Positions 4,596 through 28,598 of a stretch of 64,000 nt of DNA are shown piece by piece. Source of the DNA: Roseovarius sp. EL26. GTDB taxonomy: Bacteria; Pseudomonadota; Alphaproteobacteria; Rhodobacterales; Rhodobacteraceae. How positions within the stretch are numbered: position 1 is the first letter of the stretch; every line of letters begins with the position of its first letter. The notes below the pieces were generated by a model, which saw only the letters and a list, made by a program, of their open reading frames with translations, did not search any database and was not told the DNA's origin. Made by a program: the position numbers and the translations under genes. The stretch is taken from contig NZ_OUMZ01000007.1 of the NCBI RefSeq assembly GCF_900327775.1, forward strand, positions 2,095,606 through 2,159,605, given 5' to 3'.

Positions 4596-4672
4596 GGCCC
4601 CGTGGCTCAACTGGATAGAGCAGCCCCCTCCTAAGGGGCAGGTTGCAGGTTCGAATCCTGCCGGGGTCACCA
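4596..4672 (+). tRNA. tRNA-Arg (anticodon CCU)
   Basis: A complete cloverleaf can be drawn. The acceptor is GGCCCCG with CGGGGTC, the D-arm is GCTC/GAGC (4605-4621), the anticodon stem is GCCCC/GGGGC (4623-4627, 4635-4639) with loop CTCCTAA (anticodon CCT, reading AGG), and the T-arm is GCAGG-TTCGAAT-CCTGC. Discriminator A and an encoded CCA end at 4672. The 3' part is the attachment site of the island that starts immediately downstream; integration leaves this tRNA intact. Confidence 0.96.
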
Positions 4673-4674
4673 AA
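4626..4674 (+). repeat. attL: left copy of the 49-bp direct repeat
   Basis: Positions 4626-4674 (anticodon loop to 2 bp past the CCA of tRNA-Arg) are identical to 28550-28598. This is the classical signature of integration into the 3' end of a tRNA gene. Confidence 0.93.
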
Positions 4675-4720
4675 CCTGCCAATAAATACAGTGTCTTACA
4701 GAGCTTGCTGCAATTCGATT

Positions 4721-4743
4721 TGCAAGATTGTGCAGGATTGTGC
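4721..4743 (+). repeat. Short tandem 10-bp repeats near attL
   Basis: TGCAAGATTG, TGCAGGATTG and a partial TGCGG follow each other head to tail about 50 bp inside the left end. They could be accessory binding sites for the recombination proteins; this is inference from position. Confidence 0.4.
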
Positions 4744-4774
4744 GGTTCATATACGAGAACATGTAAAGAACACT

Positions 4775-4792
4775 CGTACAAAACCCGTACAG
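4775..4792 (+). repeat. Putative integrase/Xis arm site, left
   Basis: CGTACAAAACCCGTACAG matches CGTACAAAACTTGTACAG at 28470-28487 in 16 of 18 positions. One copy lies about 100 bp inside attL and the other about 60 bp inside attR, the placement expected of arm-type sites. Confidence 0.5.
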
Positions 4793-4833
4793 TCAGCATT
4801 GTGGAGCAAAGAATGCGAGCGACTCCATAAACA

Positions 4834-4905
4834 GAAAAATCCCGGCTCGGCGGCAACCGAAACCGGGATCAATTCGATAGTAAAAGCCTCCAGCTTTCTC
4901 GATCT
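4834..4905 (-). ncRNA. Candidate antisense RNA controlling repC (ctRNA-like)
   Basis: On the minus strand a strong hairpin at 4839-4869 (outer stem ATCCCGG/CCGGGAT, inner TCGG/CCGA) is followed by TTTTTCTGTTT, a textbook intrinsic terminator pointing away from repC. A possible promoter (CTGGAC, 17 bp, GTTATG) lies at about 4934-4906 on the same strand. RepC-type replicons in alphaproteobacteria are controlled by a small antisense RNA in exactly this position. The terminator is clear; the promoter is weak and the 5' end is approximate. Confidence 0.55.
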
Positions 4906-4925
4906 TCATAACATCGCGAGAGACC

Positions 4926-4943
4926 CCTCGTCCAGTGGCGAGG
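4926..4943 (+). promoter_or_regulatory. Hairpin sequestering the repC ribosome-binding site
   Basis: CCTCG (4926-4930) can pair with CGAGG (4939-4943), which contains the GAGG of the repC Shine-Dalgarno site 7 bp before the ATG. Such a structure would let an antisense RNA control RepC synthesis by changing the fold of the leader. Confidence 0.5.
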
Positions 4944-4950
4944 TGCGACA

Positions 4951-6051
4951 ATGACACGACACCTTACCCACAACGGCTTGCCTGAGGGCATGACACGCTG
5001 GCAGTTCTTTGGGTTGATTGAGGCTGCACGCCAACAGCTCGGCCTCAGTAAGGGTGCAATCGCCTATCTGAAGGTCGCGATTTCAAACACAATGGATGAG
5101 GATTTTGCAGCAGGCAGGATTTGCAGCTTCTGGACCTCAGTCACAAAGATCGCCGCACGAGCGAGGCTAGACCGGCGGCAGGTTGCTCGGATCGAGGCGT
5201 GGCTTATTGAAAATGGCTTTCTCATCAAGACAGCCTCAGATCACAGCCGTCGTGCTGGATCACGTAAAGATGGCAAGATTGGACATGAGTTCGGCATCAA
5301 TCTTGCGCCATTGATTGCGCGCGCCACCGAGATTCAGGCTGCCGCACGGAAGGCTGCCTTCGAGGAAGCGGAAGCCGAACGGCTTCGCAACCGGATCAAA
5401 ACGTTGTTTGGGGACATTCGTAGACTTTGCTTCGAAGGTGCGATGGAGGCCGCTGAGGAGGTCCTGCCCAATCGTCGTCCCTCGACCATTCAAAGCTTCG
5501 AACGACTGAGGCAGGTGGCCGAAGCGCTGGAAGCTGTCTGGGAGGATTTTTCCGCACGAATTGGTATGGGTGAAAAGTCCCACCAGTGCGACATTTCACC
5601 CACACTCAATACAAGTAAGGAAAATAATAACAAAACCTGTATGCCTGAGAAACGGCATGATGTTCAGCCGCTCCGTACAACGCCTGCGCAAGTGGCGCTG
5701 CTAGCGAGCGAGCCGCTGCGAGCGATCATCGAGTTTTACTGGAGCGCGCTAGACAACCGTGGCGCGCTCAGTCCGCAAACAATCCAGAGGGCGGCAAAGG
5801 AGCGAGCATATCAGCTTGGGGTAAACCCCAGCGTCTGGGAACGACTTAGCAGAGTGTTGGGTGAGGAACGCACGGCGCTTTGCTTTATGATCGCAGATCG
5901 CAATGCCGAACGTCTGGATGGCTATCGAGTGCGGGATGCCGCAGCTGCGTTCATTGGCATGGCACGTTCAGAAGCGCGTCAGGGCTTAGTCGTCAACAGC
6001 CTGCTCGGGGAACTGATTGGCACCGTGGGAGAGCAACGAAATGGCGCATGA
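4951..6051 (+). CDS. repC: RepC-like plasmid replication initiator
   Basis: The 366-residue protein resembles RepC, the initiator of repABC-type plasmids of alphaproteobacteria. The N-terminal half (about 10-130) carries a winged-helix region with RHLTHNGLPEGMTRWQFF, SFWTSVTKIAARARLDRRQ and ARIEAWLIENGFLIKT. A charged coiled-coil stretch and a variable linker (about 205-245) follow, and then a helical C-terminal domain. RepC binds an AT-rich origin inside its own gene; an AT-rich block lies at about 5600-5642. No repA or repB partition genes are present, so the element has an initiator but no visible partition system. The start ATG at 4951 has a GAGGTG site that a hairpin can mask. Whether it still fires in the chromosome is unknown. 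Confidence 0.82.
   Translation: MTRHLTHNGLPEGMTRWQFFGLIEAARQQLGLSKGAIAYLKVAISNTMDEDFAAGRICSFWTSVTKIAARARLDRRQVARIEAWLIENGFLIKTASDHSRRAGSRKDGKIGHEFGINLAPLIARATEIQAAARKAAFEEAEAERLRNRIKTLFGDIRRLCFEGAMEAAEEVLPNRRPSTIQSFERLRQVAEALEAVWEDFSARIGMGEKSHQCDISPTLNTSKENNNKTCMPEKRHDVQPLRTTPAQVALLASEPLRAIIEFYWSALDNRGALSPQTIQRAAKERAYQLGVNPSVWERLSRVLGEERTALCFMIADRNAERLDGYRVRDAAAAFIGMARSEARQGLVVNSLLGELIGTVGEQRNGA
5600..5642. other. Candidate AT-rich replication origin inside repC
   Basis: This is the most AT-rich block of the gene (it reads AGGAAAATAATAACAAAACC at its core). It falls in the linker between the two RepC domains, the place where oriV lies in known repABC plasmids. The assignment rests on position and base composition only. 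Confidence 0.4.
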
Positions 6052-6227
6052 TACATCGCTTCCACGTGCTTTCATTTGTCATCGAGACCTCGTCGCAACA
6101 TCAGACCGTGCGCCCACGACAAGGCTGGCGCGGGATGAGGTTGCAGTCGCCACCGGCGGCTTCGATTCGGGACGGATCGGCGGCGTAGCCGCTTGGTTGG
6201 GTGCAGGGGCGCAGCGCCTTGCCCGGC

Positions 6228-6244
6228 GAGTTGTTTATCAACTC
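6228..6244 (+). other. Candidate oriT inverted repeat upstream of the relaxase
   Basis: GAGTTG (6228-6233) and CAACTC (6239-6244) form a perfect inverted repeat with a 5-bp loop, 44 bp before the relaxase start. MobV-type relaxases nick near such repeats upstream of their own gene. A GC-rich palindrome (GGCGCAGCGCC) lies just to the left. Confidence 0.4.
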
Positions 6245-6288
6245 AATAGTCGGTCAGTATTGTGTTTCTTTTGGCGGGACAGCTGATC

Positions 6289-7641
6289 ATGTCTGGCCCG
6301 CAGTTTTTGCACCTTCAAAGCTATTCACGCAAACCCAACAAGATTGGCCAAAGCGCCCAACAGGTCTTGGATGAGGCGGCACGTGAGCCTGAATTTTCCG
6401 TACACGTCGAAAGCCCAAAACCGCCGAACATTGTCTACGGCATTACGCCGCAACAGGTCCGCAAGAAGCATGACGAAATCGTAGCGACTGGATATGTCGA
6501 TGTGACGTTGAAGGATGGCACCGTTGCGAGGCGGGGCATCCGAAAGGATCGCCATACCCTTCTGACTGCCGTCGCTTCCTATCCCTTGCCGACTGCGAAG
6601 GTCGAGGAGGGTTCTGCTGACCGAGCGGAATATGAACGCTGGATTGAGCTGAATATTCGCTGGCTGAAGGAAATGTTTGGCGATCGACTTGTTTCAGTTG
6701 TTGAGCATGTAGATGAGGAGTACCCGCACGTCCACGCGTTCATTTTGCCTCTGGGAGATGCCAGTTGTTCTGCCCGTCATTTGAACCCAGCCTGGGAGGT
6801 CAAAGAAGAAGCCGAAGCGTTGGCCAGAGAGAGCGGCAAGCCAGCCAAGGAAGCCGTTAAGCTTGGCAATCGCGCCTACCGCGCGCGTGGTCGTGAACTA
6901 CAGGATGAGTATTTTGCCGAGGTTGGATTGCCTGCTGGTTTGACCCGCTTAGGGCCCAAGCGAGAGCGTTTATCGCGAGAACAGTGGAAGAAACGAAAAG
7001 AGCAGGCTCGGCGCGATGCTGAATTGCACAAGCAAATGTCTGAACGTGTTGAGAACCTCGCCGATGCTGAGGCCCAGTTTGATGCGGACGCCGATCAAAA
7101 GGCAGCCGAGGTCGCGGATAAGTTGGCACGTGTCGAGGCGCTTTACGAAGAGGCGTTGTTGGCAAGAGGCGATGCTGAGGCGGAAGCTCAAGAGATCCTA
7201 AGGCGGGCTGAGACTGAGAGTGCAGAAATGAAGCAGATGACGCGAACTGAGCTGGCCCAGAAAACGGAAACACTGGAACAGCAGGCATCAAGCCTTCTAT
7301 CTGACCGTTTCGCGTTTGAAGATGAAAAACGGACGTTCTTAAGGGAAGTTGTGTTACGCGCAGCGTCTGTGACAGCGCGGGTTCTGATCGGCGTCCTTAC
7401 CGGGAGTGTTCGCTTCGATGACAAAAAATCAGAACTACAATTCGATGATCCTAGACTCGCCCAGGATGTGGAGCGGTTGGAAATTGCACCGGTGATCGAA
7501 AAGGTCGTCGTATTGGTCAGTAAGGTCTGGGCCAAGCTTACCGGGAAGCTGTCCACCTTAGAGGCTGAGCATGAACGTGAACAAATCTCTGAGGTGCTCA
7601 AGCCTATTTCAAGGCCACAATCGGGAGGAATGCAGCCATGA
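6289..7641 (+). CDS. MobV/Pre-type relaxase (plasmid mobilization)
   Basis: The 450-residue protein should nick the transfer origin and lead the strand into a recipient, using a helper secretion system. The MobV/Pre family signature HxDExxPHxH is present as HVDEEYPHVH at residues 140-149, with the family's early HLQSYSRK segment at residues 8-15. Residues from about 235 to 350 are charged and strongly coiled-coil, a common tail in this family. I start at the ATG at 6289 (MSGPQFLHLQ), because nine upstream codons add a non-family extension. The stop overlaps the start of the next gene by 4 bp, so the two are translationally coupled. A possible oriT lies just upstream. Confidence 0.83.
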   Translation: MSGPQFLHLQSYSRKPNKIGQSAQQVLDEAAREPEFSVHVESPKPPNIVYGITPQQVRKKHDEIVATGYVDVTLKDGTVARRGIRKDRHTLLTAVASYPLPTAKVEEGSADRAEYERWIELNIRWLKEMFGDRLVSVVEHVDEEYPHVHAFILPLGDASCSARHLNPAWEVKEEAEALARESGKPAKEAVKLGNRAYRARGRELQDEYFAEVGLPAGLTRLGPKRERLSREQWKKRKEQARRDAELHKQMSERVENLADAEAQFDADADQKAAEVADKLARVEALYEEALLARGDAEAEAQEILRRAETESAEMKQMTRTELAQKTETLEQQASSLLSDRFAFEDEKRTFLREVVLRAASVTARVLIGVLTGSVRFDDKKSELQFDDPRLAQDVERLEIAPVIEKVVVLVSKVWAKLTGKLSTLEAEHEREQISEVLKPISRPQSGGMQP

Positions 7642-8303
7642 CAAATGATCTCGACAATCGGATTGCTACCCTTGAAGCAAAGCGGCGGACGAACAGCTTG
7701 GCGACGGTGCGTGACGCTGAACAAGTTGTTGGGGAACTACACGAGGCCGTCCGTCAGGCGTCCTTTACCGTTGGAGGTCTGAATGCACGGACAGATCTGA
7801 TTGATGAACGCGCCTCCTCTTTAGAACGACGCATTCGGCAGATCTGGGTGCTTGTTGGTGCTGGAGTTGTTGTCTCTGTTGTTGCAGCAGCATTTGTCGT
7901 CGCTTTTGCGTTCTGGTCTGCGGCAAAGGTCAAAGCTGCTGCCGAGATTGAAACTTCCCTTCTTCGTGAAACAATTTCTGCCGAAGTTGAGGCATCACGT
8001 CTGGACGGTGAAATGGCGTTGGCTGAACTGGAAAGCAATGTGTTGCGTCAGAGTGAACTAGCCGCTGAACAGCTTACCCAAATCGGGGAGGACATTTCTG
8101 CAATGTCTCAAGAAAGAGATGCTGTACGGCAAGAGCTTGAGCATTTCATCACACTACGGGACAGGGTTGGTATCCAGTTGTTGGATTTTCGTGGCCATAC
8201 GTTAGTTGTTATCCCAGAAGGAGCTCGTATCAGGCGTTGGCAGGCGGATGATCTGTCCGAAGTCGCACATTTGAACGGACGCATGTATCGGCTCTCAGAC
8301 TAA
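7638..8303 (+). CDS. Membrane-anchored coiled-coil protein coupled to the relaxase
   Basis: This 221-residue protein starts inside the relaxase stop (ATGA overlap). Residues 1-65 are polar helix, one transmembrane segment lies at about 69-93, and residues 95-165 form a long coiled coil rich in Glu, Leu and Arg. The last 50 residues form a small globular end with VVIPEGARIRRW. I do not recognise a named family. Its position and coupling suggest an accessory mobilization protein that tethers the relaxase complex at the membrane, as MobB-like proteins do in other systems. That role is inference. Confidence 0.6.
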   Translation: MTNDLDNRIATLEAKRRTNSLATVRDAEQVVGELHEAVRQASFTVGGLNARTDLIDERASSLERRIRQIWVLVGAGVVVSVVAAAFVVAFAFWSAAKVKAAAEIETSLLRETISAEVEASRLDGEMALAELESNVLRQSELAAEQLTQIGEDISAMSQERDAVRQELEHFITLRDRVGIQLLDFRGHTLVVIPEGARIRRWQADDLSEVAHLNGRMYRLSD

Positions 8304-8752
8304 ACCAGTGTTCCCCCTGTTTAGCGCCATCAATCGCAACGACTTAAATATATTGGCGTTAATTTCGAATATGATGAGCTCCGGAAGCTCAGGCGCGGAG
8401 GCAATGCCAACATTTATCTCCAGTATCGCGACTGTCGGCTATGCGGACTTTCCGGACTTGTGCAGGCGCAGCTATTGCTCACGCAGCATTAGCCAACACA
8501 TGCAGCGGCGTTCATGCGGCGTCGCAATTCAAATCGTCGAAGCGGTCATCCCCAGCCGGTCTCGGCGTCACCATTCAAACTGCACTTCGCCGCATGATAT
8601 CCGGACAAGAGAGACGCGTGTCCGATTGGACTTGGACAGCTTTTTTACTTGTGGCGCGCGTCAGCCAATGCAAATAGGTCCGCCCAGCCGGACAAGTACT
8701 ATGGTCATCTCATGTGAATTTTGAAGTCTTGTTTTGCTGTTCGGCGTCCAGT
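8304..8752. other. Non-coding junction between mobilization and catabolic modules
   Basis: About 450 bp hold no frame with convincing protein character on either strand. The stretch separates the plus-strand mobilization genes from the minus-strand catabolic genes and is a probable module boundary. No inverted terminal repeats or transposase remnants were seen. Confidence 0.55.
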
Positions 8753-11023
8753 TCACCTTTTTAGACGATGATCTTTGCCTGCAATAGTCTCTACTTTGAC
8801 AAGGCAAGAATGCGCCACGGGACCCTGGGCCAGTCTTGATGTGCCTTTGTCACGGGTCAGCACGTTCGGGTTGCCATTGCGGCAGAGGTCGCCGTCAGAA
8901 TAGAGCCATGCGCCGGTCGCAATCTGGATAACGCCGGGTCGGGTCATGTCGCTGATCCGCAGTTCAGCAAGGCATGCGCCGCGGGTGTTGTGAATTTTGA
9001 CAATCTGACCTTCGATCAGCCCGCGCACCGCAGCGTCTCTCGGGTGCATCGTCATCGGTTCAACGCCCTTTGGCCGGTCAGCCTGGCTGACCGCGCCGTG
9101 ATCTAACTGGCTGTGCAGCTTGTTGCGGGGCTGGTTAGATATCATGTGCAGGTCATCCGGGGCAGCAGCGCCCAGCCATTCGGTCGGTTCCATCCACGCG
9201 GGGTGGCCGGGACAATCGTCATAGCCGAAGTCTGCGATGGTCTGCGAAAAGATTTCGATCCTGCCCGACGGTGTGGCGAGCGGGTTGGCCTCTGGGTCGG
9301 TGCGAAAAGCGTCCAGCATGACAGTGGGCTTGTCCGGCACCGGTACCTTGACCCAGCCGTCGCGCTGCAAGCTCTCCCAACCGGGCAGCTCAACACGTTG
9401 TCCTGCGGCCTGTTGGCGCGAAACCTCCCAGATCCAGCGTTGCCAATCCTGCGGGCTGCGCCCTTCGGTAAACGCCTCTTCCACGCCCATTTCAGCGGCA
9501 ATGCCACGTAGGATTTCGTGATCATCACGCGCCTGTCCCACGGGTTTGATGGCGCGGTCCATCACCACTTGATAGGGGTCTTTGGGCGTCAGTGCGATGT
9601 CGCTGCGCTCCAGCGGCGTGGTGCAGGGCAGCACTATATCGGCATGTTTGGCCAGTGCGTTCCAGCACCATTCATTGGCGATGATGGTCTCGGGCTTGGC
9701 CCAGGCCCGCCGCATACGGTTCAGATCCTGATGGTGGTGGAAAGGGTTGCCACCGGCCCACCAGACGAGCCGGATGTCGGGATACTTGTAAGACGCGCCG
9801 TCATAGTCGAATTTCCCCCCGGGGGTCTCCAGCATGTCTGTCACGCGCGCCACGGGGATGAAATCCGGCACAGGATTATGGCCTTGCGGAAAGGACGCAT
9901 AGTGGATTGGCGTGCGGTTCAATCCGGTGTTGTTCATCGCCGAATAGCCAAAACCCAGGCCCGTCCCCGGCAGGCCGATCTGCCCCAGCATCGCCGCAAG
10001 TGCGATGGCCGCCCAAAACGGTTGTTCGCCGTGATCCTGACGTGTCAAAGCCCAAGCTGTTGAGATCATGGTCCGGCTGCGCGCCATGCGACGGGCCAAA
10101 TCACGGATGGTGTCGGCAGGAATCTCGCAAATGTCTGCGGCCCATTCAGGTGATTTGGGAATGCCATCCGTTTTGCCCAACAGATAGTCAGCAAAACGCG
10201 CAAAACCGACGGTGTAGCGGTCAAGGAACGCTTGATCGTGCAGGTCTTCGTTGAGCAACACATGGGCCAGCGACAGCATCAGTGCCACGTCTGTATTGGG
10301 CCGGATGGGCAGCCAATCTGCGTTGACCCGGTCCAGCAGGTCCGCCCTGAGAGGGGAGATATTGACGAACTTGACGCCTGCCTTGTGTGCCGCAAGCAAT
10401 CCGCCTTTCTGTACGTGTGCGCCGGTCCCACCCTGGCTGATTTGCCCGTTCTTCAGAGGCACACCGCCGAAAGCGACGAACAGGTCACAATCTGATGCAA
10501 TGCTTTCCCAGCTTGTGGTTGTATCCAAATGCCCGCGGAAGGTGCCGAGGACATGAGGTACGAGCACCTCTGCCGCAGCGAAGGAATACGTGTTTTTGGA
10601 ACCGGTATATCCACCGATACAGTTCAGAAACCGTTTGAGTTGGCTTTGCGCGTGGTGAAACCGCCCAGCACTTGCCCAGCCGTAAGACCCGGCATAAATC
10701 GCGCGGTTGCAATGGGTAGAGCGCACGCGGGTAAGCTCTGCAGCGACCAGCCGGTTGGCTTCCTCCCAGGTAACCTCCACGAATGCGTCCGACCCGCGTT
10801 TGTCACCCGCCGTGCCCGGGCCACCTTCCAGCCAGCTCTTGCGCACCATCGGGGCCGTGATCCGTGTTGGGCCGTCAAGCACATCCACTATCCCCGGCCC
10901 AATTGGCGAGGGATCTGGGTCATGCTCAAACCCACGAAGGTTGGTGACACGACCATTCTCAACATCCACCCGGTAGGTGCCCCAATGCGTGCTTGTGAGC
11001 AGATCCCGTTCGGATTTCGTCAT
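8753..11023 (-). CDS. Molybdopterin oxidoreductase, BisC/DMSO-reductase type (cytoplasmic)
   Basis: The 756-residue enzyme belongs to the type III (serine-ligated) branch of the DMSO reductase family, which reduces S-oxides or N-oxides using a bis-MGD molybdenum centre. By its own numbering it has Tyr114 and Trp116 in GSYGW, and Ser147 in NTYSFAAAE, at the same spacing as the active-site Tyr114, Trp116 and Ser147 of mature Rhodobacter DMSO reductase. There is no twin-arginine signal and no N-terminal Fe-S cysteine motif, so it should act in the cytoplasm like biotin sulfoxide reductase. It starts 8 bp after the acyl-CoA ligase stop with an AGGTGA site, so the two form an operon. The substrate is unknown. 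Confidence 0.87.
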   Translation of the reverse strand: MTKSERDLLTSTHWGTYRVDVENGRVTNLRGFEHDPDPSPIGPGIVDVLDGPTRITAPMVRKSWLEGGPGTAGDKRGSDAFVEVTWEEANRLVAAELTRVRSTHCNRAIYAGSYGWASAGRFHHAQSQLKRFLNCIGGYTGSKNTYSFAAAEVLVPHVLGTFRGHLDTTTSWESIASDCDLFVAFGGVPLKNGQISQGGTGAHVQKGGLLAAHKAGVKFVNISPLRADLLDRVNADWLPIRPNTDVALMLSLAHVLLNEDLHDQAFLDRYTVGFARFADYLLGKTDGIPKSPEWAADICEIPADTIRDLARRMARSRTMISTAWALTRQDHGEQPFWAAIALAAMLGQIGLPGTGLGFGYSAMNNTGLNRTPIHYASFPQGHNPVPDFIPVARVTDMLETPGGKFDYDGASYKYPDIRLVWWAGGNPFHHHQDLNRMRRAWAKPETIIANEWCWNALAKHADIVLPCTTPLERSDIALTPKDPYQVVMDRAIKPVGQARDDHEILRGIAAEMGVEEAFTEGRSPQDWQRWIWEVSRQQAAGQRVELPGWESLQRDGWVKVPVPDKPTVMLDAFRTDPEANPLATPSGRIEIFSQTIADFGYDDCPGHPAWMEPTEWLGAAAPDDLHMISNQPRNKLHSQLDHGAVSQADRPKGVEPMTMHPRDAAVRGLIEGQIVKIHNTRGACLAELRISDMTRPGVIQIATGAWLYSDGDLCRNGNPNVLTRDKGTSRLAQGPVAHSCLVKVETIAGKDHRLKR

Positions 11024-11031
11024 TGGATCAC

Positions 11032-12651: not shown

Positions 12652-12680
12652 TTGTGGCTCTGATTATTCATTGTTCTCAT

Positions 12681-12690
12681 AAAATATCAG
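12681..12690. promoter_or_regulatory. AAAATATCAG motif upstream of the acyl-CoA ligase
   Basis: The 10-bp AAAATATCAG recurs exactly at 13693-13702 upstream of the crotonase/TRAP operon, and a related AAATATCA lies at about 12713-12720. It is a candidate site for the LysR regulator between the two units. Confidence 0.4.
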
Positions 12691-12739
12691 AGGCAACGTG
12701 CCGCGAATTCTCAAATATCAAAAATCTATGTATTGATAA

Positions 12740-13648: not shown

Positions 13649-13652
13649 TATT

Positions 13653-13702
13653 GATATTCCAAAGTTATCAAAACATAGAAAACTAATAATGGAAAATATC
13701 AG
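13653..13702. promoter_or_regulatory. Divergent promoter region with LysR-type motifs
   Basis: GATATTCC (13653-13660) faces GGAAAATATC (13691-13700) as an imperfect inverted repeat in the 117-bp gap between the LysR gene and the crotonase gene. The right arm contains the AAAATATCAG motif found upstream of the ligase. LysR proteins bind such AT-rich dyads near divergent promoters. Confidence 0.45.
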
Positions 13703-20572: not shown

Positions 20573-20675
20573 ATTGTTCACCGTTCAGAGTTGTTAGACG
20601 CCTGCGGGTGATCTTCGACAAGGACAGATGGGTGCCACGCATTGAGTTGGTGATATTGGACCGACTGCGCTCAGC

Positions 20676-20693
20676 GCAAATCTAATGATTTGC
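20676..20693. promoter_or_regulatory. Palindromic operator between GcvT-like gene and LysR gene
   Basis: GCAAATCTAATGATTTGC has perfect 7-bp arms around TAAT and lies 31 bp before the LysR start. This is the usual position and form of a LysR autoregulatory site that also controls the divergent gene. Confidence 0.6.
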
Positions 20694-20724
20694 ACAAGTC
20701 GTTCGAAAAAATTAGACAATATTC

Positions 20725-21609: not shown

Positions 21610-22075
21610 AATCCTGTGGACGTTCAGCTCATGAACGGCGGTTTTGGGGAAATTTGCAAGAACACCGCGCTCTGCGCCGAATTTACCAAGGTTTTCTGCG
21701 TCAGCGAAAGAGGCAAAAGCAAAAAGGCGGGATTGTTCCGCAATTTTCGAATTCATGGTTTCAGATTTGCTGCGCGTTGCATGAACGGCTGCTGTTTCCG
21801 CCGCCAGGCAGCATAAAATCTTTCGCCGCTTCGTAAAAATCTCTGCTGCGCGCGCATGCAGCGAAATTTTGACACTTCTGCAATGGGCTCTGAGGAGACC
21901 TTCGCCGCGCGTAGCACGAACGTCCGGTTTTCCTTTTCAGGATATAGCGTGACGCTGGTTTGAATGTCGCGAGCGATAAGAACTCCGTCCACTGTCGCAG
22001 ACGAATTGCGTTGTTAAAAGTGGCCCCAGAATTCATCATGCAGGTCACTCCAGACCAGAAAACGCGCCATCAGTT
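21610..22075. other. Non-coding spacer
   Basis: About 466 bp hold no persuasive gene on either strand. Short open frames exist but lack ribosome-binding sites and protein-like composition. It separates the catabolic cassette from the phosphoesterase block and may be a former insertion boundary. Confidence 0.5.
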
Positions 22076-22304: not shown

Positions 22305-22871
22305 TTAAATCTCCTTCGCATTGTGTTCGACGTCCTGCCAGTGCTTGTTCACCGGCAGCGTCTTTGCCCGCCGCGCAATGTCCTCGAAGCGAACAGGCAT
22401 GAAGTCCCAGACGTCCACACCGGCGTTGACGCTGTTCCTCGAACCTTTCCAGTTCCCGTGAACATGGCCGAAGATCTGGAGCGCATCCCTGCGGGCGTGG
22501 TTCCAGGTAATCATCGGGTAGTGGCACAGCGTATGCGCCTGGTTCTTAGGGCCGTCCCTGACCTCTGCGATGTGCGAGATACTGTCCCATGGCAACGCCA
22601 GCGTCGGTTCCAGATCATGGTTGCCGACGATCAAATGTTTGCGCGCTCTGGGGAGCTGACCGAAGAGCCCTTCGAGGTAGGTTGCATCTTTGGCGTTCGG
22701 GCCAAACGCGAAGTCTCCGACGATCCAGAGATCATCGTCTGGGCCAACCTTCGACCATAGGTTTTCGATCAGGATCGCGTCCATCTGTCCGGCGCTGCGG
22801 AAGGGGCGGCCACAGAACGCGATGACGTTCTCATGCCCGAAGTGGGTGTCTGCTGTATACCAATTGGTCAT
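22305..22871 (-). CDS. Metallophosphoesterase
   Basis: The 188-residue protein has the calcineurin-like metallophosphoesterase motifs in order: DTHFGHEN (D-x-H with a bound metal, about residues 7-14), GDFAF, GNHD (about 90), a lone His in CHYPMI, and GHVHGNW. It should hydrolyse phosphodiesters or phosphomonoesters with two metal ions in the cytoplasm. Start ATG at 22871 gives MTNWYTADTHFG, the usual family opening; 21 further codons upstream have no family character. Its partner is the small basic protein. Confidence 0.88.
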   Translation of the reverse strand: MTNWYTADTHFGHENVIAFCGRPFRSAGQMDAILIENLWSKVGPDDDLWIVGDFAFGPNAKDATYLEGLFGQLPRARKHLIVGNHDLEPTLALPWDSISHIAEVRDGPKNQAHTLCHYPMITWNHARRDALQIFGHVHGNWKGSRNSVNAGVDVWDFMPVRFEDIARRAKTLPVNKHWQDVEHNAKEI

Positions 22872-23076
22872 GTGTTTTTTCCGTCGTGCGTTGGTAGCGC
22901 GGACGGCGACGGCGAATGCGGAGATGACGATCATCAGAGGCGAACAGCGCGAAGCCGCCCGCCAGTTTGGGGGCGCTAGGTTTGGGTGATATGTTTGCGC
23001 AATGTGATCATTCGGGTCTCATAGCTGCTTTGAGCCATTCTGGCTATCCCTCATCACAGGTCCATGACCTAGTTCC

Positions 23077-23535
23077 CTACTGTTCGCCCGGCGTGAAGCT
23101 GAGAATTCCGTAGGTGTCATCCGGATCGGCACCAATCTCGCTGTAGAAAAGGCTACATATCGTACCGATTACCGCAGCCAGCTTTAGGCCTTTGTGATGC
23201 AGCCAGTTTTCTTCGTTTTCGGCACGTACCACCAGATCGTAGCCAGCGAACTGGTTCACAGAAATCAGGAAGTCGTGTTCTCCAACAAACCCAATAACCT
23301 CACGAGCGGTCAAGGCGCTCTGCTCTTGGTCTGGTGGGTCCATAACGTATTGGGGCATGCGCTCACATAACAACAAGAGGGCCATGTCCAACTTGTCCGC
23401 GTCATATTGCAGCTCAGACAAGTTGGTTCGCGGCTTCATTCCGAGCAAGCTAAACTGACGCTCGTCAAAAATTTCAAATATGGGATTCAGGGCCTCTTCC
23501 ATGCGCGAACGCAGATGCCAGATGTTATCTTTCAT
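23077..23535 (-). CDS. Hypothetical protein
   Basis: This 152-residue soluble, acidic protein has no motif I recognise and no signal peptide. It has an amphipathic helical start and a mixed C-terminal half. Its ATG overlaps the stop of the upstream exported-protein gene by 4 bp, so the two are translationally coupled and probably act together. Confidence 0.6.
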   Translation of the reverse strand: MKDNIWHLRSRMEEALNPIFEIFDERQFSLLGMKPRTNLSELQYDADKLDMALLLLCERMPQYVMDPPDQEQSALTAREVIGFVGEHDFLISVNQFAGYDLVVRAENEENWLHHKGLKLAAVIGTICSLFYSEIGADPDDTYGILSFTPGEQ

Positions 23536-24401
23536 AGCTTTATCCTGCTTGGTGCCTGCTCCTCATCAAGAGCCTCTAGTATTTGCTGGTCGGTTGCAGC
23601 GCGGTTAGCCCTGATCAGTCGATAGTCCATGAGATCAAAGTGGATCATGGTTTTCAGACCTGAACTTTGCACACGTATCCTTAAGACAGTGTCGCAAGAT
23701 GCTAGCGGATCCTCGGGTCGAGGCATTCGAAATTCATAGAATGCGTCTCGCCCTATGGCGTTAATACACGGCACATCATCATGGAAGAATGAACCAAACC
23801 GCGAAATTGAGGCCGTCATTGGTTGCCCTGCGACGACAGGATGCATCGACGCCTCGAGCGCTGGTAGATCAGGGATGAATCCATCTGTTCCATATGCATA
23901 GATCAACTCGGAATCGTAGGACCCAGTCACCATAGCCGAGGGCTGACCGTAGCTCTCGATCAACTGAGCAAAAACGGCCTCTGCAGAGGGACGATCGTTG
24001 CCGAATATTGCAATTGTCCGATGAATTGCGAGGACTCGTCCATCAAGCACGTCTGTTGCGAGGTCTACGGTAATCTCCTCATAGTCATCACTGCCCATCC
24101 GCACGAACGGGTCCACCCAAGGGGTCGTCAGGCGCTGTGTGTACACATATTGGAACTGGCGGCCCTCTGGCGATTGTATGCTCAGAGTAACTTGTTCTGG
24201 AACAAGATCGCGTTCTAAGTGAGCCGACAATGCAGTTAGCGCAGATTCAGCATCCATATTCGGCGACACACCTAGAATGGCATGCGGATGAGCCGTTGCT
24301 GCAGCAGGGGGTGTAAGGGCGTGCAAATCATCTGAAGTATCGTCAGCTAGCGCAGACGTTACCGACAGTGTTGAGCATAAGAAAACAGTTAATAGTCGCA
24401 T
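23532..24401 (-). CDS. Hypothetical exported protein
   Basis: The protein has about 289 residues and starts with a clear Sec signal peptide (MRLLTVFLCSTLSVTSALA, cleavage after ALA), so it is periplasmic. The mature part has no family I recognise; two cysteine pairs in the C-terminal third may form disulfides. The start could be the GTG four codons upstream. It lies upstream of the 152-residue partner and is divergent from an XRE regulator across a palindromic site. Confidence 0.62.
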   Translation of the reverse strand: MRLLTVFLCSTLSVTSALADDTSDDLHALTPPAAATAHPHAILGVSPNMDAESALTALSAHLERDLVPEQVTLSIQSPEGRQFQYVYTQRLTTPWVDPFVRMGSDDYEEITVDLATDVLDGRVLAIHRTIAIFGNDRPSAEAVFAQLIESYGQPSAMVTGSYDSELIYAYGTDGFIPDLPALEASMHPVVAGQPMTASISRFGSFFHDDVPCINAIGRDAFYEFRMPRPEDPLASCDTVLRIRVQSSGLKTMIHFDLMDYRLIRANRAATDQQILEALDEEQAPSRIKL

Positions 24402-24430
24402 GATGATCACCACAAATTATCTACTTTTAA

Positions 24431-24485: not shown

Positions 24486-24743
24486 GTGACGAAATCTCTT
24501 AGATCAGAAGGCCATATCGCTCTCATCAGGGCTCTGGTCGAGGCAAGGAAGGCCAAAGGCATTTCTCAAGCCGAGTTAGCGACATTATTGAAGTGTCATC
24601 AGTCATTCGTCGCCCGGATTGAGTCGGGTCAACGTCGGATCGATGTCCCCGAGCTTGTTATTTTATCGCGAGCACTTGACGCTGACGCATCAGTCTTGTT
24701 GACGAAGGTATCTAGCGCTGTACCACTTGGAGCCCGGATTTAG
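24486..24743 (+). CDS. XRE-family helix-turn-helix regulator
   Basis: The 85-residue protein is essentially one Cro/CI-type DNA-binding domain: ARKAKGISQAELATLLKCHQ followed by SFVARIESGQRRIDVPEL. It starts with GTG at 24486. It is divergent from the exported-protein pair across an inverted repeat and is likely their repressor and its own. Confidence 0.85.
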   Translation: MTKSLRSEGHIALIRALVEARKAKGISQAELATLLKCHQSFVARIESGQRRIDVPELVILSRALDADASVLLTKVSSAVPLGARI

Positions 24744-24855: not shown

Positions 24856-25080
24856 CTATGCGCAGCAAGACTTGCCCTCTTGGATCGGTGGGCAAGGAAC
24901 AGTTGCGTATGAGCAATACACGCAACAGTCACCCTCAAGCGGTTTCAGCACTGTCTGACAGGACTTGCATTCATAGAACCACTGGCAGGCATCTGTGGGC
25001 ATGGTTTCGGTCTCCACATGCCCACAAGACGGACAGGTCAAAGTGGATTCCAAGACTACTTTTGTTTCTTCTGTCGCCAT
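24856..25080 (-). CDS. Cysteine-rich GDCCxxC protein of mer operons
   Basis: The 74-residue protein has a zinc-ribbon-like CPSCGH...CKSC pair and then GDCCVYCSYATVPCPPIQ, the signature of small GDCCxxC-domain proteins that travel with mercury-resistance genes. Twelve cysteines in 74 residues suggest metal binding. Its start overlaps the merF stop by 25 bp. The family's usual Gly in 'SYG' is Ala here. A role in mercury handling is inferred from context. Confidence 0.82.
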   Translation of the reverse strand: MATEETKVVLESTLTCPSCGHVETETMPTDACQWFYECKSCQTVLKPLEGDCCVYCSYATVPCPPIQEGKSCCA

Positions 25081-25265
25081 AGCGCGTACCCCGTCAACAT
25101 GAGAAAACCTGCCAAAACCGGCAGTAGAACGGCATCGTTGTATAGAACGCCGAGTAATCCGGTAAGGCCAAGTGCCGTCAGTACGACCGGCAAGAGCGGT
25201 GTGAAGCAGCACAGGGTCGCCAAGATCGTGCCGCCGATTCCAAGTGCCAGTAACTTGTTCTTCAT
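25056..25265 (-). CDS. merF: Mercury transport protein MerF
   Basis: This small inner-membrane protein (69 residues, two transmembrane helices) carries the vicinal cysteine pair of MerF in ATLCCFTPLLPVVL near the end of the first helix. It passes Hg(II) into the cytoplasm. I use the ATG at 25265 (MKNKLLALGIGG). It overlaps merT by 4 bp and the GDCCxxC gene by 25 bp. No merA gene is present to reduce the imported ion. Confidence 0.87.
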   Translation of the reverse strand: MKNKLLALGIGGTILATLCCFTPLLPVVLTALGLTGLLGVLYNDAVLLPVLAGFLMLTGYALWRQKKQK

Positions 25266-25648
25266 CGGGTCGATCTCCACAAATCCCACATGAACCTTTG
25301 CGCTGAGGCCTCCCAATATGGCGAAGACAGCGCGAGCAAAAAGGCAATACTTGCAAGAGAGGTCCAGACGATAGCGGACCGCCTACGCGTCACGCATGGT
25401 TTTGGCCGAGCAACCCGATACCATGCCCAGACAAGCGCAATGGCAACACCTAACAAAATGAAACCGCGATAAGCGATGAACGGTCCAAGCATCGTCAACC
25501 ATGAGCCACCAAGGCCAATGATCGATAGACCGATAGGCAGAACGCAACATGACGCTGACAACAAAGCGAGGGCTGCTGCGAGGGGCATGAGCATCCGACC
25601 GATCAAGCCGGGTTCAGTCGCTGTTTGTTCATTTGCATTCACGTTCAT
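25262..25648 (-). CDS. merT: Mercuric ion transporter MerT
   Basis: The 128-residue protein has three transmembrane helices and the vicinal cysteine motif SASCCVLPIGLS in the first helix, which accepts Hg(II) from the periplasm. The C-terminal part carries one further Cys (KPCVTRR) between helices two and three. It is the first gene of the minus-strand mer unit and is divergent from merR across a MerR-type operator. No merP gene for the periplasmic shuttle is seen. Confidence 0.87.
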   Translation of the reverse strand: MNVNANEQTATEPGLIGRMLMPLAAALALLSASCCVLPIGLSIIGLGGSWLTMLGPFIAYRGFILLGVAIALVWAWYRVARPKPCVTRRRSAIVWTSLASIAFLLALSSPYWEASAQRFMWDLWRSTR

Positions 25649-25663
25649 TTTGCCCTTCTAATT

Positions 25664-25680
25664 CCTGTAGTGGCTACAGG
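25664..25680. promoter_or_regulatory. MerR-type operator between merT and merR
   Basis: CCTGTAG and CTACAGG are perfect 7-bp arms around TGG. On the minus strand a TTGCTC -35 and a TAGAAG -10 flank the dyad at the long spacing typical of MerR-controlled promoters, reading toward merT. Confidence 0.75.
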
Positions 25681-25690
25681 AGCAAGCAAA

Positions 25691-26116
25691 ATGTTCACGA
25701 TTGGGAAGGCATCAGAACAAAGCGGCGTGAAGATCGAAACGATCCGCTATTATGAACGCGAAGGCGTTGTGCCTAAGCCGGGACGAACCGCAGGCGGACG
25801 CAGGCTCTATTCACCCGATGAGATCGCAAAACTGAGGTTTGTTCGCCGATGCAGAGATTTGGGTTTCCCTATCTCGATCATCCGAACCTTCCTGTCTTTG
25901 ACCGTGCAAAAAGATCGTTCATGTGGCGAGGTGAAAACCTTGGCGGAAGATCACTTGGTTGAGATCAACGCCAAAATAGAAAACCTGGTGCTTCTTCGCG
26001 AAGCGCTTCTAAACCTATCTGCGAACTGCGATGATGGGACAGCGGCCTGTCCGATGCTCGATGCTCTGATGAAAGATGGTTTTGGGGAATTGGGATCAGA
26101 GCAAAGCAGACCTTAG
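25691..26116 (+). CDS. merR: MerR-family mercury-responsive regulator
   Basis: The 141-residue regulator has the MerR winged helix (FTIGKASEQSGVKIETIRYY, then RTAGGRRLYSPDEI), a dimer helix and a metal-binding loop. Cysteines 78, 113 and 120 match the Hg(II) triad of MerR (82, 117, 126 in the Tn501 protein; the first two have the same 35-residue spacing, but the last loop is shorter). The start at 25691 (MFTIGKASEQ) fits the family. It is divergent from merT and should distort the shared promoter to activate it when metal binds. Confidence 0.87.
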   Translation: MFTIGKASEQSGVKIETIRYYEREGVVPKPGRTAGGRRLYSPDEIAKLRFVRRCRDLGFPISIIRTFLSLTVQKDRSCGEVKTLAEDHLVEINAKIENLVLLREALLNLSANCDDGTAACPMLDALMKDGFGELGSEQSRP

Positions 26117-26225
26117 ATAGACTTTCATAAACGGCAGCAAAGTCCGCACAGCTGACCTTAGCGCAATGCGCAGCGAAAGGCCGCTCCCCGCCGAATGCTG
26201 CATAAACTCCATTGACTTCAATGCC

Positions 26226-26882
26226 TTAGAGATGGGCAGCTTCTTCGTCCTGAGGAGGAAAATCTCTATCAATCTTTGCCTGCCACTCTGTCATTGCTTC
26301 TTCGTACTCATCTGTTCTTCCTTCATATTCTTCCCAATATGGAGGCGCAGGTATGTCTTCAGGATGAAAGCGATAACACGTCACCATTCTCACGGCATCT
26401 CGGATCACTGATGGATGCATTCGGGACCACCCTTGCCAATCGGTTGTAACTGCGAACCGGGCGACTTTTGTCCGTGTTGGTTCGTCCATTTCAGGGTATT
26501 CGCTAACTAAGTAGGCTCTGATCGACATTAGATCATCAACGGCATGACGAACAGTTTCAAAGTTTGTCCGAGCAGGGCGGCCCAGCAAAATTTCATTGAG
26601 ATCTGCCCCAGTGACCATCGCGAGTTTTACGAGTGTCGTGGATGGTATCGGTCGCAATCCACGCTCGTACGCATAATACGTGCGTGACGTTACCCCCAGC
26701 AGTTCGGCCATTTCATTTTTTTGCAGCCCAAGTTTTTCGCGTAAGGCTTGCACGTTTGTGTGCACAGCTGAGGTGGGAGTGTTCCGAACGTAGCCCTCTC
26801 TGAAGTTCTCCAGCTTATCCAGTCTGTCCGTAATCTTCCTGATGGTAGCTGTATTTTCTGACCTTAACTTGAATTTAGCCAA
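26226..26882 (-). CDS. XRE-type regulator of the island's right end
   Basis: The 218-residue protein has a helix-turn-helix at about residues 45-100 (REKLGLQKNEMAELLGVTSR, then TYYAYERGLRPIPSTTLVKL) and an unassigned acidic C-terminal domain that may sense a signal or form multimers. It is divergent from the Xis-like genes and integrase, and several inverted repeats lie in the gap, so it probably represses excision and integration functions like an immunity repressor. That role is inferred. Confidence 0.75.
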   Translation of the reverse strand: MAKFKLRSENTATIRKITDRLDKLENFREGYVRNTPTSAVHTNVQALREKLGLQKNEMAELLGVTSRTYYAYERGLRPIPSTTLVKLAMVTGADLNEILLGRPARTNFETVRHAVDDLMSIRAYLVSEYPEMDEPTRTKVARFAVTTDWQGWSRMHPSVIRDAVRMVTCYRFHPEDIPAPPYWEEYEGRTDEYEEAMTEWQAKIDRDFPPQDEEAAHL

Positions 26883-26899
26883 AGCTCGCCCTCCCGATG

Positions 26900-26941
26900 A
26901 TCGGAACGAACGTACCGATTAATATGCGTTGCGTGAGCAAC
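26900..26941. promoter_or_regulatory. Operator cluster between XRE repressor and Xis genes
   Basis: Two dyads lie side by side. ATCGGAACG/CGTACCGAT (26900-26919) has one mismatch, and GTTGC/GCAAC (26928-26941) is perfect. They occupy the 122-bp divergent gap and are likely control sites for excision genes. Confidence 0.45.
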
Positions 26942-27004
26942 TTGTAACTCATTACATCAGGGTGACAAGTCTCTGCAAGAGATTGCAATTTTTGCGAGGA
27001 AGCT

Positions 27005-27223
27005 ATGCCAGATCTACTTTCAAAAGGCCAAACCCCTGAAGCTTGGAGTAAGCAGCTAATGGAGCACGGGGTGCATGTTTCACCTCGTTTGATCCGAGCA
27101 AAAGCGCACAAGACTGGGCATTTCCACAAAATCGGTAGGTTGATGCTTCTTACGCCGCTCCAGATCGAAAATTTGATCATCGCATCTTCCGAGACCGTCG
27201 ACGGTCAACCGTCGGGAGGCTGA
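27005..27223 (+). CDS. Xis-like small DNA-binding protein A
   Basis: The 72-residue protein has the size and layout of a recombination directionality factor: a helix-turn-helix-like centre (TPEAWSKQLMEHGVHVSPRL, then IRAKAHKTGHFHKIGRLMLL). It aligns over about 55 residues with the next gene (shared G-x-[TS]-P-x-x-W, [LI]-R-x-K-A and HK[IL]G), so the two arose by tandem duplication. It lies 2 bp upstream of its copy and then the integrase. Direct assignment to excisionase is inference from position and form. Confidence 0.65.
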   Translation: MPDLLSKGQTPEAWSKQLMEHGVHVSPRLIRAKAHKTGHFHKIGRLMLLTPLQIENLIIASSETVDGQPSGG

Positions 27224-27225
27224 GA

Positions 27226-27576
27226 ATGCCAAAGCAATCTATCGAGCCCCTTGGGTCGGAAGTTCTGGATAACGGAAAGTCGCCGACCCAGTGGGTGGCG
27301 GTCCTTTCATCTCGGGGTCTCGCAATCACCGAACGAACGCTTCGTGAGAAAGCCAACAGGCTCGGTGCCTGCCACAAGCTTGGCAATGCAATGATCATCA
27401 CAGCGGCCCAAATCGATACAATTTTAAAGGAGGGCACCCATTGCCGCTCGAACCGAGGAAAAGGGACCGCATCTACTATGCGGTCGGCTGGATCGAATAC
27501 AACGGTCGCCCGATCGCCGGTCCATATCGAAAAAGCACGGAGTCGACTACAGAAGCTGGCGCGCGGGACTGGATAG
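27226..27576 (+). CDS. Xis-like small DNA-binding protein B (overlaps the integrase start)
   Basis: Residues 1-70 are a second copy of the Xis-like fold of the preceding gene (SPTQWVAVLSSRGLAITERT, then LREKANRLGACHKLGNAMII). The frame continues to 27576, so its last 45 residues are encoded by the first 136 bp of the integrase gene in another frame. That tail has unnatural composition and is probably a by-product of the overlap. The overlap may couple synthesis of the two proteins. Confidence 0.6.
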   Translation: MPKQSIEPLGSEVLDNGKSPTQWVAVLSSRGLAITERTLREKANRLGACHKLGNAMIITAAQIDTILKEGTHCRSNRGKGTASTMRSAGSNTTVARSPVHIEKARSRLQKLARGTG

Positions 27577-28514
27577 CTCAGGAAACTGAATACCAAATCC
27601 GAAAGCATCTTGTTGGAGAGGATAAAGCACTCAGGTTCTTAGATGCCCTTGAGCTTTATGATCCCGACCCCAAGACTGCGGCTCGAATAGAAAAGTTGCT
27701 CGACGAAATTGGGGAGGTGCCACTATCCGATATCACTGGAGCCTTTCTCAAGAGCTTAGGCCCTAAGCTAATGCCAGACGTGTCAGTTGATACATGGCTG
27801 CGGGAGATAATCACACCCGTCCGTGCGGTCGTTAACAATGCCCACGAACTGAAGAGAACACCCTATTTGAAAGTTCGAGCTTTCAAGACAAGCGAAGTTG
27901 TCGCTCAAGACACAAAGCGCGGGAAAACAAGCCGTGTAAAGCGGGTCCCAGCAACTAGAGGATGGATCGAAGCATTCTGTCGAGAGGCTGACCCCTATAA
28001 TGCGGCACTTGTTCGCTTCATGTTTGAGACTGCAGCAAGGATTGATCAGGCCATCTCAGTGAAACCGGCGGAAGTCTTCCCGGAATCGCTTGCGGTGAGC
28101 CTCAAAGCCCAAAAAGGGCATCCAAAATGCCTGGTCGCAGTCAGCCCCGAGATGATGGACGAACTCACAGCGTTAAAGCCAAAGAGGCCAAGGAACCGGA
28201 AGACCGGCGGTTTCATAGAAGAAAGGCTATTCGGTTATGGGAGTTCGACAGGCTACAATGGTAGGTGGAAGACGATCTGCAACGCGGCGGACATACCTTA
28301 TCTTTCCGCACATGCCGCTGGCAGACATGGATTCTATACCGAACTGGTTGTGCGACAGGGTGTTGACCCAGTGACTGCAGCTGAAGCCGGACGTTGGTCC
28401 GACGTTTCCTTGCCGCTAAGAGTTTATGCGCATTCAGAAACCGATGAAGCGCAGATTAGGGCGCTGTTTCGTACAAAACTTGTACAGCTGCAGGCCAAAG
28501 ACGACGGCAAATAA
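27441..28514 (+). CDS. int: Tyrosine recombinase (island integrase)
   Basis: The 357-residue protein has the catalytic set of a phage-type integrase: Arg in FETAARIDQAIS, Lys in KAQKGHPKC, the HAAGRH box, a Trp in GRWSDVS and the nucleophile Tyr in RVYAH. The N-terminal part (about 1-130) should be the arm and core-binding regions. It starts with TTG at 27441 behind a strong AAGGAGG site, inside the preceding Xis-like frame. Its 3' end lies 35 bp from attR. It should recombine the 49-bp repeat in tRNA-Arg(CCU). Confidence 0.9.
   Translation: MPLEPRKRDRIYYAVGWIEYNGRPIAGPYRKSTESTTEAGARDWIAQETEYQIRKHLVGEDKALRFLDALELYDPDPKTAARIEKLLDEIGEVPLSDITGAFLKSLGPKLMPDVSVDTWLREIITPVRAVVNNAHELKRTPYLKVRAFKTSEVVAQDTKRGKTSRVKRVPATRGWIEAFCREADPYNAALVRFMFETAARIDQAISVKPAEVFPESLAVSLKAQKGHPKCLVAVSPEMMDELTALKPKRPRNRKTGGFIEERLFGYGSSTGYNGRWKTICNAADIPYLSAHAAGRHGFYTELVVRQGVDPVTAAEAGRWSDVSLPLRVYAHSETDEAQIRALFRTKLVQLQAKDDGK
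28470..28487 (+). repeat. Putative integrase/Xis arm site, right
   Basis: CGTACAAAACTTGTACAG lies in the last codons of the integrase gene and matches the left copy at 4775-4792 in 16 of 18 positions. Inside it GTACAA/TTGTAC is a perfect dyad. Confidence 0.5.
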
Positions 28515-28549
28515 CTGAAATCAAATAAGGAATATGCATATGACTAACT

Positions 28550-28598
28550 CCCTCCTAAGGGGCAGGTTGCAGGTTCGAATCCTGCCGGGGTCACCAAA
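28550..28598 (+). repeat. attR: right copy of the 49-bp direct repeat
   Basis: This is the displaced 3' part of tRNA-Arg(CCU), identical to 4626-4674. It lacks the 5' half of a tRNA and is not a functional tRNA gene. Confidence 0.93.

Follow-up and report, generated by a model that had tools for sequence, protein, structure and literature searches.

A probable integrative mobilizable element with a solitary RepC and a MobV-like relaxase in tRNA-Arg(CCU) of Roseovarius sp. EL26

A stretch of 64,000 nucleotides from Roseovarius sp. EL26 (contig NZ_OUMZ01000007.1, positions 2,095,606 to 2,159,605 of the forward strand; genome of 3.9 Mb in 7 contigs), called the window below, carries an island in a tRNA-Arg(CCU) gene. 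The tRNA gene (4596-4672, plus strand, anticodon CCT) is the integration target, and its 3' part is restored by the element. Two identical 49-bp direct repeats, the left one at 4626-4674 (the attachment, or att, core) and the right one at 28550-28598, bound 23.9 kb. They were the sole direct repeat of at least 30 nt reported in the window (seed 16), and by our arithmetic 49 bases would match by chance in 64 kb with a probability of the order of 1e-20. The repeat reaches from the anticodon stem-loop to beyond the 3' end of the tRNA, therefore insertion rebuilds the tRNA. Between the repeats the order is repC, mob, a gene for 221 amino acids (aa), cargo, a phosphoesterase-like gene, small genes, a mer-like pair, a helix-turn-helix (HTH) regulator, two Xis-like genes and int. 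The tRNA call and the repeat search thus both agree with a preliminary description of this DNA, which had placed an element with exact 49-bp end repeats in tRNA-Arg(CCU). In our judgement the island is probably a canonical integrative mobilizable element (IME); once excised, its circle would use RepC to replicate and a helper to move.

The integration module and its target

The tyrosine recombinase gene (int, 27441-28514, plus strand) encodes 357 aa, and the product scored 27.0 bits with Pfam Phage_integrase, against a cut-off of 27.1. Residues R200, K225, H291, R295, H296, W319 and Y329 were invariant in all eight aligned integrases, the one of the window included, in keeping with its earlier description as catalytically intact. 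The histidine-arginine box reads HxxxRH in 8/8 sequences; the usual box, HxxR, is one residue shorter. Upstream lie two Xis-like open reading frames (ORFs) on the plus strand, Xis-like 1 (27005-27223) and its paralogue Xis-like 2 (27226-27576), which overlaps the start of int. Neither matched a Pfam family at cut-off, and relatives of both adjoin related integrases, which upholds their initial naming as a pair of Xis-like genes.

At E 1e-20 the integrase had 36 matches in 35 of 394 genomes of the family (the window's included), and 30 of these matches were covered by a scan for tRNA tails. Close relatives were defined as matched over at least 221 residues at 46% identity or more, the window's own excluded; 19 of these 20 have a tRNA-Arg tail about 60 bp 3' of int (at most 6 mismatches in 46). 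Among the nine remaining loci a tail was found only in L040 (74% identity over 68 residues), with 7 mismatches. A search for tRNA genes at 28 integrase loci found none, but the flanks taken were too short.

Motif comparison located a left arm-type site, GTACAAAACCCGTACAG (4776-4792, plus strand), which is a probable integrase arm site, and a right one, GTACAAAACTTGTACAG (28471-28487, plus strand), inside the 3' end of int. Allowing up to 2 mismatches, the common motif GTACAAAACnnGTACA was present at the 3' end of int in each of 21 loci (L013-L033); all four other islands checked at both ends, that of Aliiroseovarius sediminis included, had another copy near the tRNA end. Control loci (100,562 bases) contained no copy; in the window a further copy with 2 mismatches occurs at 50091, outside the element. 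Because the int-side copies overlap conserved codons, it is the tRNA-side copies that carry the argument. On this comparison the GTACAAAACnnGTACA copies look like arm sites of the integrase.

Occupation of the target was surveyed in 60 genomes of the genus. By our own count a full match to tRNA-Arg(CCU) at 92% identity or more was present in 52, the window's included, and eight of these 52 had a second copy of the 3' half of the tRNA. The right-hand neighbour gene, used in the search for empty sites, was present in 58 of the 60; in the 30 loci listed of these 58, none of the 29 other than the window had tRNA-Arg within the flank, a short one of 1.5 kb. Two side observations concern this region. 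In locus L129 (G405:C4:99860-102045) a second tRNA-Arg tail lies 2.1 kb from the tRNA, perhaps marking a minimal or decayed element. The tRNA region of the window and locus L125 (genome G420) have the right flank in common and not the left, and the chromosome seems to be rearranged in one of the two.

RepC, a candidate origin within its gene, and a candidate antisense RNA

The repC gene (4951-6051, plus strand) encodes a solitary initiator of the RepABC type (366 aa). The RepC-like initiator named in the preliminary description was recognized by Pfam RP-C (E 1.5e-22) and by NCBIfam RepABC_RepC (E 1.2e-24, yet below the family cut-off), and it is the only RepC match above cut-off in the genome. 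Neither repA nor repB lies beside repC: the tRNA ends 279 bp upstream and mob follows downstream, an arrangement outside the RepABC class. At E 1e-20, RepC matches were found in 8 of the 394 family genomes (the window's included). In all, 32 named genome loci and two contigs from a viral collection carried RepC relatives. In seven of the 32 a tRNA-Arg(CCU) ends 279-303 bp before repC, and further RepC relatives lie at tRNA-Cys with a 52-bp repeat and at tRNA-Pro with a 46-nt repeat. In one relative, the Pelagimonas draft locus L144 (8935-11098), two repC matches in opposite orientation, one complete and one partial (173 residues), are separated by about 550 bp.

A tree was built from 22 of the 34 loci, the window, two solitary plasmid RepC proteins (one of them labelled so by us) and five RepC proteins of RepABC-type plasmids; the Sinorhizobium meliloti row comes from a record that starts at repC, with repAB outside it. 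The 23 rows of the window's kind fell on one side of a branch (97/93), separate from the RepABC-type rows. The two solitary plasmid proteins stood apart (100/100), so the RepC of the window does not group with RepC_soli; long branches were flagged in this tree and its plasmid rows are few. The five proteins from RepABC-type plasmids are 23-29% identical to the RepC of the window, over 154-366 residues. In 13 of the 14 relatives compared dN/dS of repC was 0.08-0.16, the fourteenth being saturated; with values of about 0.1, and with the constrained block and the hairpin described below, the replicon looks selected.

Synonymous identity along repC, counted at codons where the amino acids agree, was 0.53 overall and rose to 0.96 in windows of codons starting at 203-213. 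A set of seven further RepC genes, more distantly related, reached 0.93 at the same place. Of 15 genes, 12 have an AT maximum that starts at nucleotide 643, and in the remaining three the start is no more than 15 nt away. This AT-rich block under constraint at the DNA level (codons 203-235; 5557-5655, plus strand) is a candidate origin of vegetative replication (oriV). In the structure model of RepC (predicted local distance difference test, pLDDT, 83.5) residues 207-239 have low confidence, and the constrained DNA therefore falls where the protein looks loose. A profile of RepC gave nothing significant against PDB sequences, and in a Foldseek search with the model no hit reached E 0.001, the top one being DnaD (4.1e-3), followed by winged-helix regulators. 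On Rhizobium etli p42d an AT-rich stretch within repC serves as the origin, and replication is abolished by silent changes; the relative place of the in-repC origin is not conserved among repABC plasmids (PMC3155836; this and the other papers below are cited from excerpts).

Upstream of repC a terminator-like hairpin with a U run (4838-4873, minus strand) lies antisense to the repC leader and may end a counter-transcribed RNA (ctRNA). The terminator scan returned this one site, with 0.4 expected. In an alignment of 16 sequences, which retains one poorly aligned row (L146), 8 of the 12 pairs were changed on both sides (36 cells). None of 500 shuffles reached this number of cells or the score, and 44 of 500 reached the number of pairs; since there are two main sequence types, the independent covariation events are few. 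The strand test (A-C in 18 cells versus T-G in 2) favours the minus strand, mainly from two columns. A promoter-like pair at 4907-4935 (minus strand) was read by eye. The Rfam scan of the window at gathering thresholds found only the tRNA and the ffh small RNA, hence neither the ctRNA nor the array described below, and a loose scan of 4500-6400 found only the tRNA and two chance-like matches. As a sequence feature, the antisense-type control of RepC that had been proposed is borne out by hairpin and covariation.

The preliminary description suggested an element able to live as a plasmid or to integrate at the tRNA. A true episome, that is, a stable low-copy plasmid that persists for long periods and integrates only sometimes, would fit a minimal replicon that looks complete (repC, an origin candidate within it, a ctRNA-like hairpin), and on p42d repC alone suffices for replication (PMC3155836). 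Against it, a Pfam scan of 30 ORFs, of which 27 belong to the element, found neither repAB nor another recognized partition gene. RepC, Mob and Int were each used to search plasmids for free relatives. With RepC, tblastn matched 189 of 72,556 plasmid records, all below 60% identity; among the 30 listed one RepC had 57.5% and the others at most 28.7%. The 57.5% match, on pFER4 (a replicon of 1.46 Mb), lies between a pair of 20-bp tRNA-Glu repeats and therefore looks integrated too. Furthermore, seven of the 32 named RepC loci adjoin tRNA-Arg(CCU), the context being settled for part of the remainder. The episome is in our view an unlikely reading, a stable plasmid existence having no support. 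It is safer to suppose that the excised circle replicates only transiently.

The relaxase and a putative transfer origin

The mob gene (6289-7641, plus strand; the ORF is listed from a GTG at 6262) encodes a relaxase domain followed by a long coiled coil. The curated families matched under their cut-offs (Pfam Mob_Pre at 24.8 bits against 25.5, NCBIfam MobV at 45.5 of 100 bits), and a profile search of PDB sequences returned coiled coils only. A histidine motif of the type HxDExxPHxH was present in 17 of 18 Mob sequences, the window's included, and in Foldseek the best seven matches of the Mob model were all MobM (MOBV) of pMV158 (one with E below 0.001, the best 3.7e-4). Judged by its modelled fold, Mob is MobV-like and divergent in sequence; motif and fold thus sustain the MobV assignment made at the outset.

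Between repC and mob lies an array of seven helices (6095-6253, plus strand), five of them with covariation. It runs into the invariant ATAGTCGGTC (6246-6255, plus strand), a candidate nic region. This motif resembles what we take to be the MobV nick sequence, TAGTGTG/TTA, by analogy with which the nick is predicted at 6253/6254. In an alignment of 14 loci, chosen for the gene order repC-mob, 97.4% of the cells were paired and 21 of 56 pairs (62 cells) were changed on both sides; five helices showed such two-sided change, one was invariant and one varied on one side. Shuffles gave 0/500 on all five measures, and sliding the partner left at most 46.5% paired. G-T cells outnumbered A-C cells 43 to 2, therefore it is the plus strand that folds. 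A loose Rfam scan of 6040-6300 found nothing, and blastn of the array DNA found no match in the plasmid collection.

A covariance model of the array scored the 14 training loci, which are not independent, at 163-206 bits, followed by six others at 29-48 bits. Five of the six (L147, L150, L152, L043 and L044) have the core of the array on the opposite strand, 0.4-3.1 kb beyond another mob, and the sixth, L144, has no mob match. At E 0.001 the model matched in 16 of the 394 family genomes, several of the matches being weak. Ten of these regions were fetched. In six of them mob (43-46%) adjoins the array; the remaining four lack a mob match. In all six mob-array regions a match to the rep-like gene of genome G278 lies upstream (33-52%) and repC is absent from that place. 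The eight RepC loci with another relaxase (L157-L164) gave no array match at E 0.01, the best being E 0.014. ATAGTCGGTC itself occurs upstream of mob in two free plasmids of the Sulfitobacter group, and S. meliloti pRm1132f has it there with a single mismatch. Judged by this distribution, the array travels with mob and ATAGTCGGTC, not with repC.

The array could alternatively be an RNA regulator, a leader of the mob mRNA and no part of a transfer origin. Folding of the plus strand is what either a sense RNA or single-stranded DNA would show. On the other side stand the five opposite-strand cores, which lie beyond mob and cannot be the leader of that gene, the rep genes of the G278 type in place of repC, and the lack of array matches beside the other relaxase. 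We regard the leader as improbable; the array ending in ATAGTCGGTC is very probably the origin of transfer (oriT), as far as conservation and covariation can tell, and possibly also a single-strand origin. Two further loci were seen in this search. On the free plasmid pRm1132f (L186) a weak match to the array model (4335-4495, E 0.0044) lies upstream of a MobV gene. Locus L213 (G374, 9679-11597), at tRNA-Arg(CCU), appears to be a remnant, with a repC fragment, an array and a recombinase match and without a mob match.

A probable mobilizable element, its relatives and its cargo

The island combines a recombinase with its catalytic residues, att repeats at a specific site and, by sequence, covariation and model, a relaxase and oriT of its own, and none of the ORFs scanned points to a complete type IV secretion system (T4SS) on the element. 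This is the composition of an IME; the conjugation machinery that defines an integrative and conjugative element was found neither among the scanned ORFs nor in the VirB4 search of the genome. We propose that Int and the Xis-like proteins would recombine the 49-bp tRNA repeats, as anatomy and siblings suggest, which would release a circle of 23.9 kb and leave the tRNA intact. RepC would start theta replication of the circle from the AT-rich origin inside repC, where the constraint on the DNA was found, and a short antisense RNA just upstream may hold RepC in check. The MobV relaxase would nick the plus strand at ATAGTCGGTC, a helper conjugation system would carry the strand to a recipient, and replication there could give the circle time to integrate.

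That the island is integrative and mobilizable, as in the preliminary description, is well supported by siblings that share backbone, repeats and site. The one in Roseovarius mucosus has repC (78%), mob (46%), the phosphoesterase (82%), Int (67%), the 221-aa gene, the HTH gene and both Xis-like genes, and its copies of the 49-bp repeat, 100% identical, are 18 kb apart. Defence genes make up its cargo, which gave matches to Septu PtuA/PtuB, type I HsdM/HsdS and cytosine methylases. The island of A. sediminis shares repC, Xis-like genes and Int (60%), differs in its type of mob and has a tRNA repeat of 43 nt. In genome G278 an integrase of this type stands with a different relaxase and with a rep-like gene whose matches are replication initiators of phages; integrases of this type also occur in G420 and G442, where the other genes look similar by eye. 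The suggested search for the backbone in relatives thus succeeded at tRNA-Arg(CCU), and it gave no close RepC on a free plasmid among the 30 matches listed. By comparison of these loci rep, mob/oriT, cargo and int/att behave as modules exchanged between elements of the Rhodobacterales.

Several observations weigh against an IME that replicates as a circle. Excision, replication and transfer are inferred from sequence. No empty site with both flanks shared was found among relatives; in G420, where IlvD is 97% identical, another element occupies the site and the DNA on the left differs. L033, one of the 20 close integrase relatives, has no tRNA tail. The promoter scan found no sigma-70-type promoter for the ctRNA, and no small free plasmid with a close RepC was seen among the 30 listed of the 189 matched. 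VirB4 had no match in the genome, which thus holds no resident helper of that kind.

Among free plasmids, pDSM107133_l (RepW) and pDSM109990_i share a mob (44-46% over about half) with ATAGTCGGTC upstream, and differ in having another Rep, which we take to be of the rolling-circle type, no annotated integrase and no match to the array model. The canonical IMEs with MobV, Tn4451 and IMESag-rpsI, likewise have an integrase, att sites, their own MobV relaxase and no T4SS; they belong to Firmicutes, Bacteroidetes and Actinobacteria, whereas the element of the window has a RepC replicon of the RepABC type (PMC5704250). The excerpted part of this 2017 review states that the class is not described in Proteobacteria. 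It also names RepA and RepC for GISul2, IncP islands and a tet(O) fragment, leaving the family of RepC unstated. The claim that most IMEs lack a RepC initiator has to be tempered accordingly, as replication initiators of IMEs are known, and the naming of RepC weighs against novelty of a RepC-bearing IME.

SGI1 is comparable, an island of the chromosome that replicates in the manner of a plasmid once excised and relies on a helper; it differs in its RepA of the IncN2/N3 type, iteron-like repeats and helper-controlled expression (PMC7826253) and, according to abstracts, in the mobilization proteins MpsA/MpsB and the trmE site. The RepC_soli plasmid pGal_E78 also has RepC without repAB in the Rhodobacterales, but it is a free conjugative plasmid with a RepC of 401 aa (PMC4148982, PMC9025767), on a separate branch of our tree. 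In p42d the initiator gene likewise holds its own AT-rich origin with a ctRNA upstream, in our case sequence features only, and it differs by a full repABC operon on a large plasmid (PMC3155836). A 2026 study of Sulfitobacter plasmids describes, in its excerpt, a plasmid in integrated form that has neither an integrase nor flanking repeats (PMC13386836). The genome paper of R. mucosus gives plasmid replicases and DnaA, the chromosomal solitary repC being absent from the parts covered. In the open-licence literature, subscription papers such as Birmes 2021 lying outside this scope, no description of RepC-bearing IMEs in the Rhodobacterales was found in the parts covered, and the family is apparently unnamed so far. 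A tentative proposal, about which we have considerable doubt, is that this widespread and apparently unnamed IME family of the Rhodobacterales combines a self-contained replicon, its origin lying within the disordered linker of RepC, with a seven-helix, single-stranded oriT that would also start complementary-strand synthesis in the recipient, the combined oriT/conversion origin being of a new type and shared across initiators.

The cargo (8441-21890) consists of an S/N-oxide reductase, a CoA ligase, a LysR regulator, a crotonase, a tripartite ATP-independent periplasmic (TRAP) transporter DctPQM, a short-chain dehydrogenase, a hydrolase, a GcvT-like protein and a second LysR. It is 95.5% identical over 10.9 kb and 88-91% identical over 2.5 kb to modules with matching ends on plasmids of Phaeobacter inhibens (112 kb, three records) and Tritonibacter scottomollicae (241 kb). 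Given these ends and its presence on plasmids of other genera, the catabolic module looks like a separately moving unit. The reductase is nearest to dimethyl sulfoxide (DMSO) and trimethylamine N-oxide (TMAO) reductases, and the GcvT-like protein to TMAO and dimethylsulfoniopropionate (DMSP) demethylases, below their cut-offs. Our guess from these resemblances is catabolism of a methylated sulphur or nitrogen compound. The cargo, like the helix array with its oriT candidate and the arm-type sites, does not figure in the preliminary description.

At one place the window has 72 bp and the plasmid modules 2.8 kb, which encode an aldehyde dehydrogenase and a GlxA-type regulator. This difference, together with the missing VirB4 and the existence of remnants such as L213 (a repC fragment, no mob match), would suit a stranded island, once mobile and now fixed in the chromosome with its catabolic cargo. 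We hold that quite unlikely, as the 49-bp repeats are exact, the int, xis, repC and mob frames are open with the catalytic residues conserved, and repC is under purifying selection.

The remaining genes belong partly to the backbone. The 221-aa gene after mob (7638-8303, plus strand), with no assigned function, recurs in relatives, as do the metallophosphoesterase-like gene (22305-22934, minus strand; NCBIfam), a gene of no assigned function (23532-24413, minus strand) and an HTH regulator (24486-24743, plus strand; Pfam). A small ORF (23077-23535, minus strand) has no assigned function. A small mer-like group (24856-26116) comprises genes matched in Pfam as MerT-like (25262-25648, minus strand) and MerR-like (25625-26116, plus strand) and the cysteine-rich end of ORF 24856-25356 (minus strand), presumably of the GDCC type; no MerA was found among the ORFs scanned. 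Beside the excision module lies an HTH repressor-like regulator (26226-26882, minus strand; Pfam, PHROGs). As this regulator is of a phage type and the integrase is about 30% related to phage integrases, a prophage or phage satellite was considered. It was rejected as extremely unlikely: no structural or packaging genes were found among the ORFs scanned (Pfam; PHROGs on nine window proteins), a relaxase and oriT are present, and RepC had a single match, 25% identical, in 50,697 phage records.

Gene exchange through many plasmids is a known trait of marine Rhodobacterales, and the IME family proposed here would be a second, little-noticed route. In it, tRNA genes would silently harbour replicons of the plasmid type that exchange their cargo, anti-phage genes in one sibling and, in the window, catabolic genes shared with plasmids. 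The constrained blocks, the oriV candidate in repC and the oriT array, offer short, precise targets for work on replication and transfer of an integrated element.

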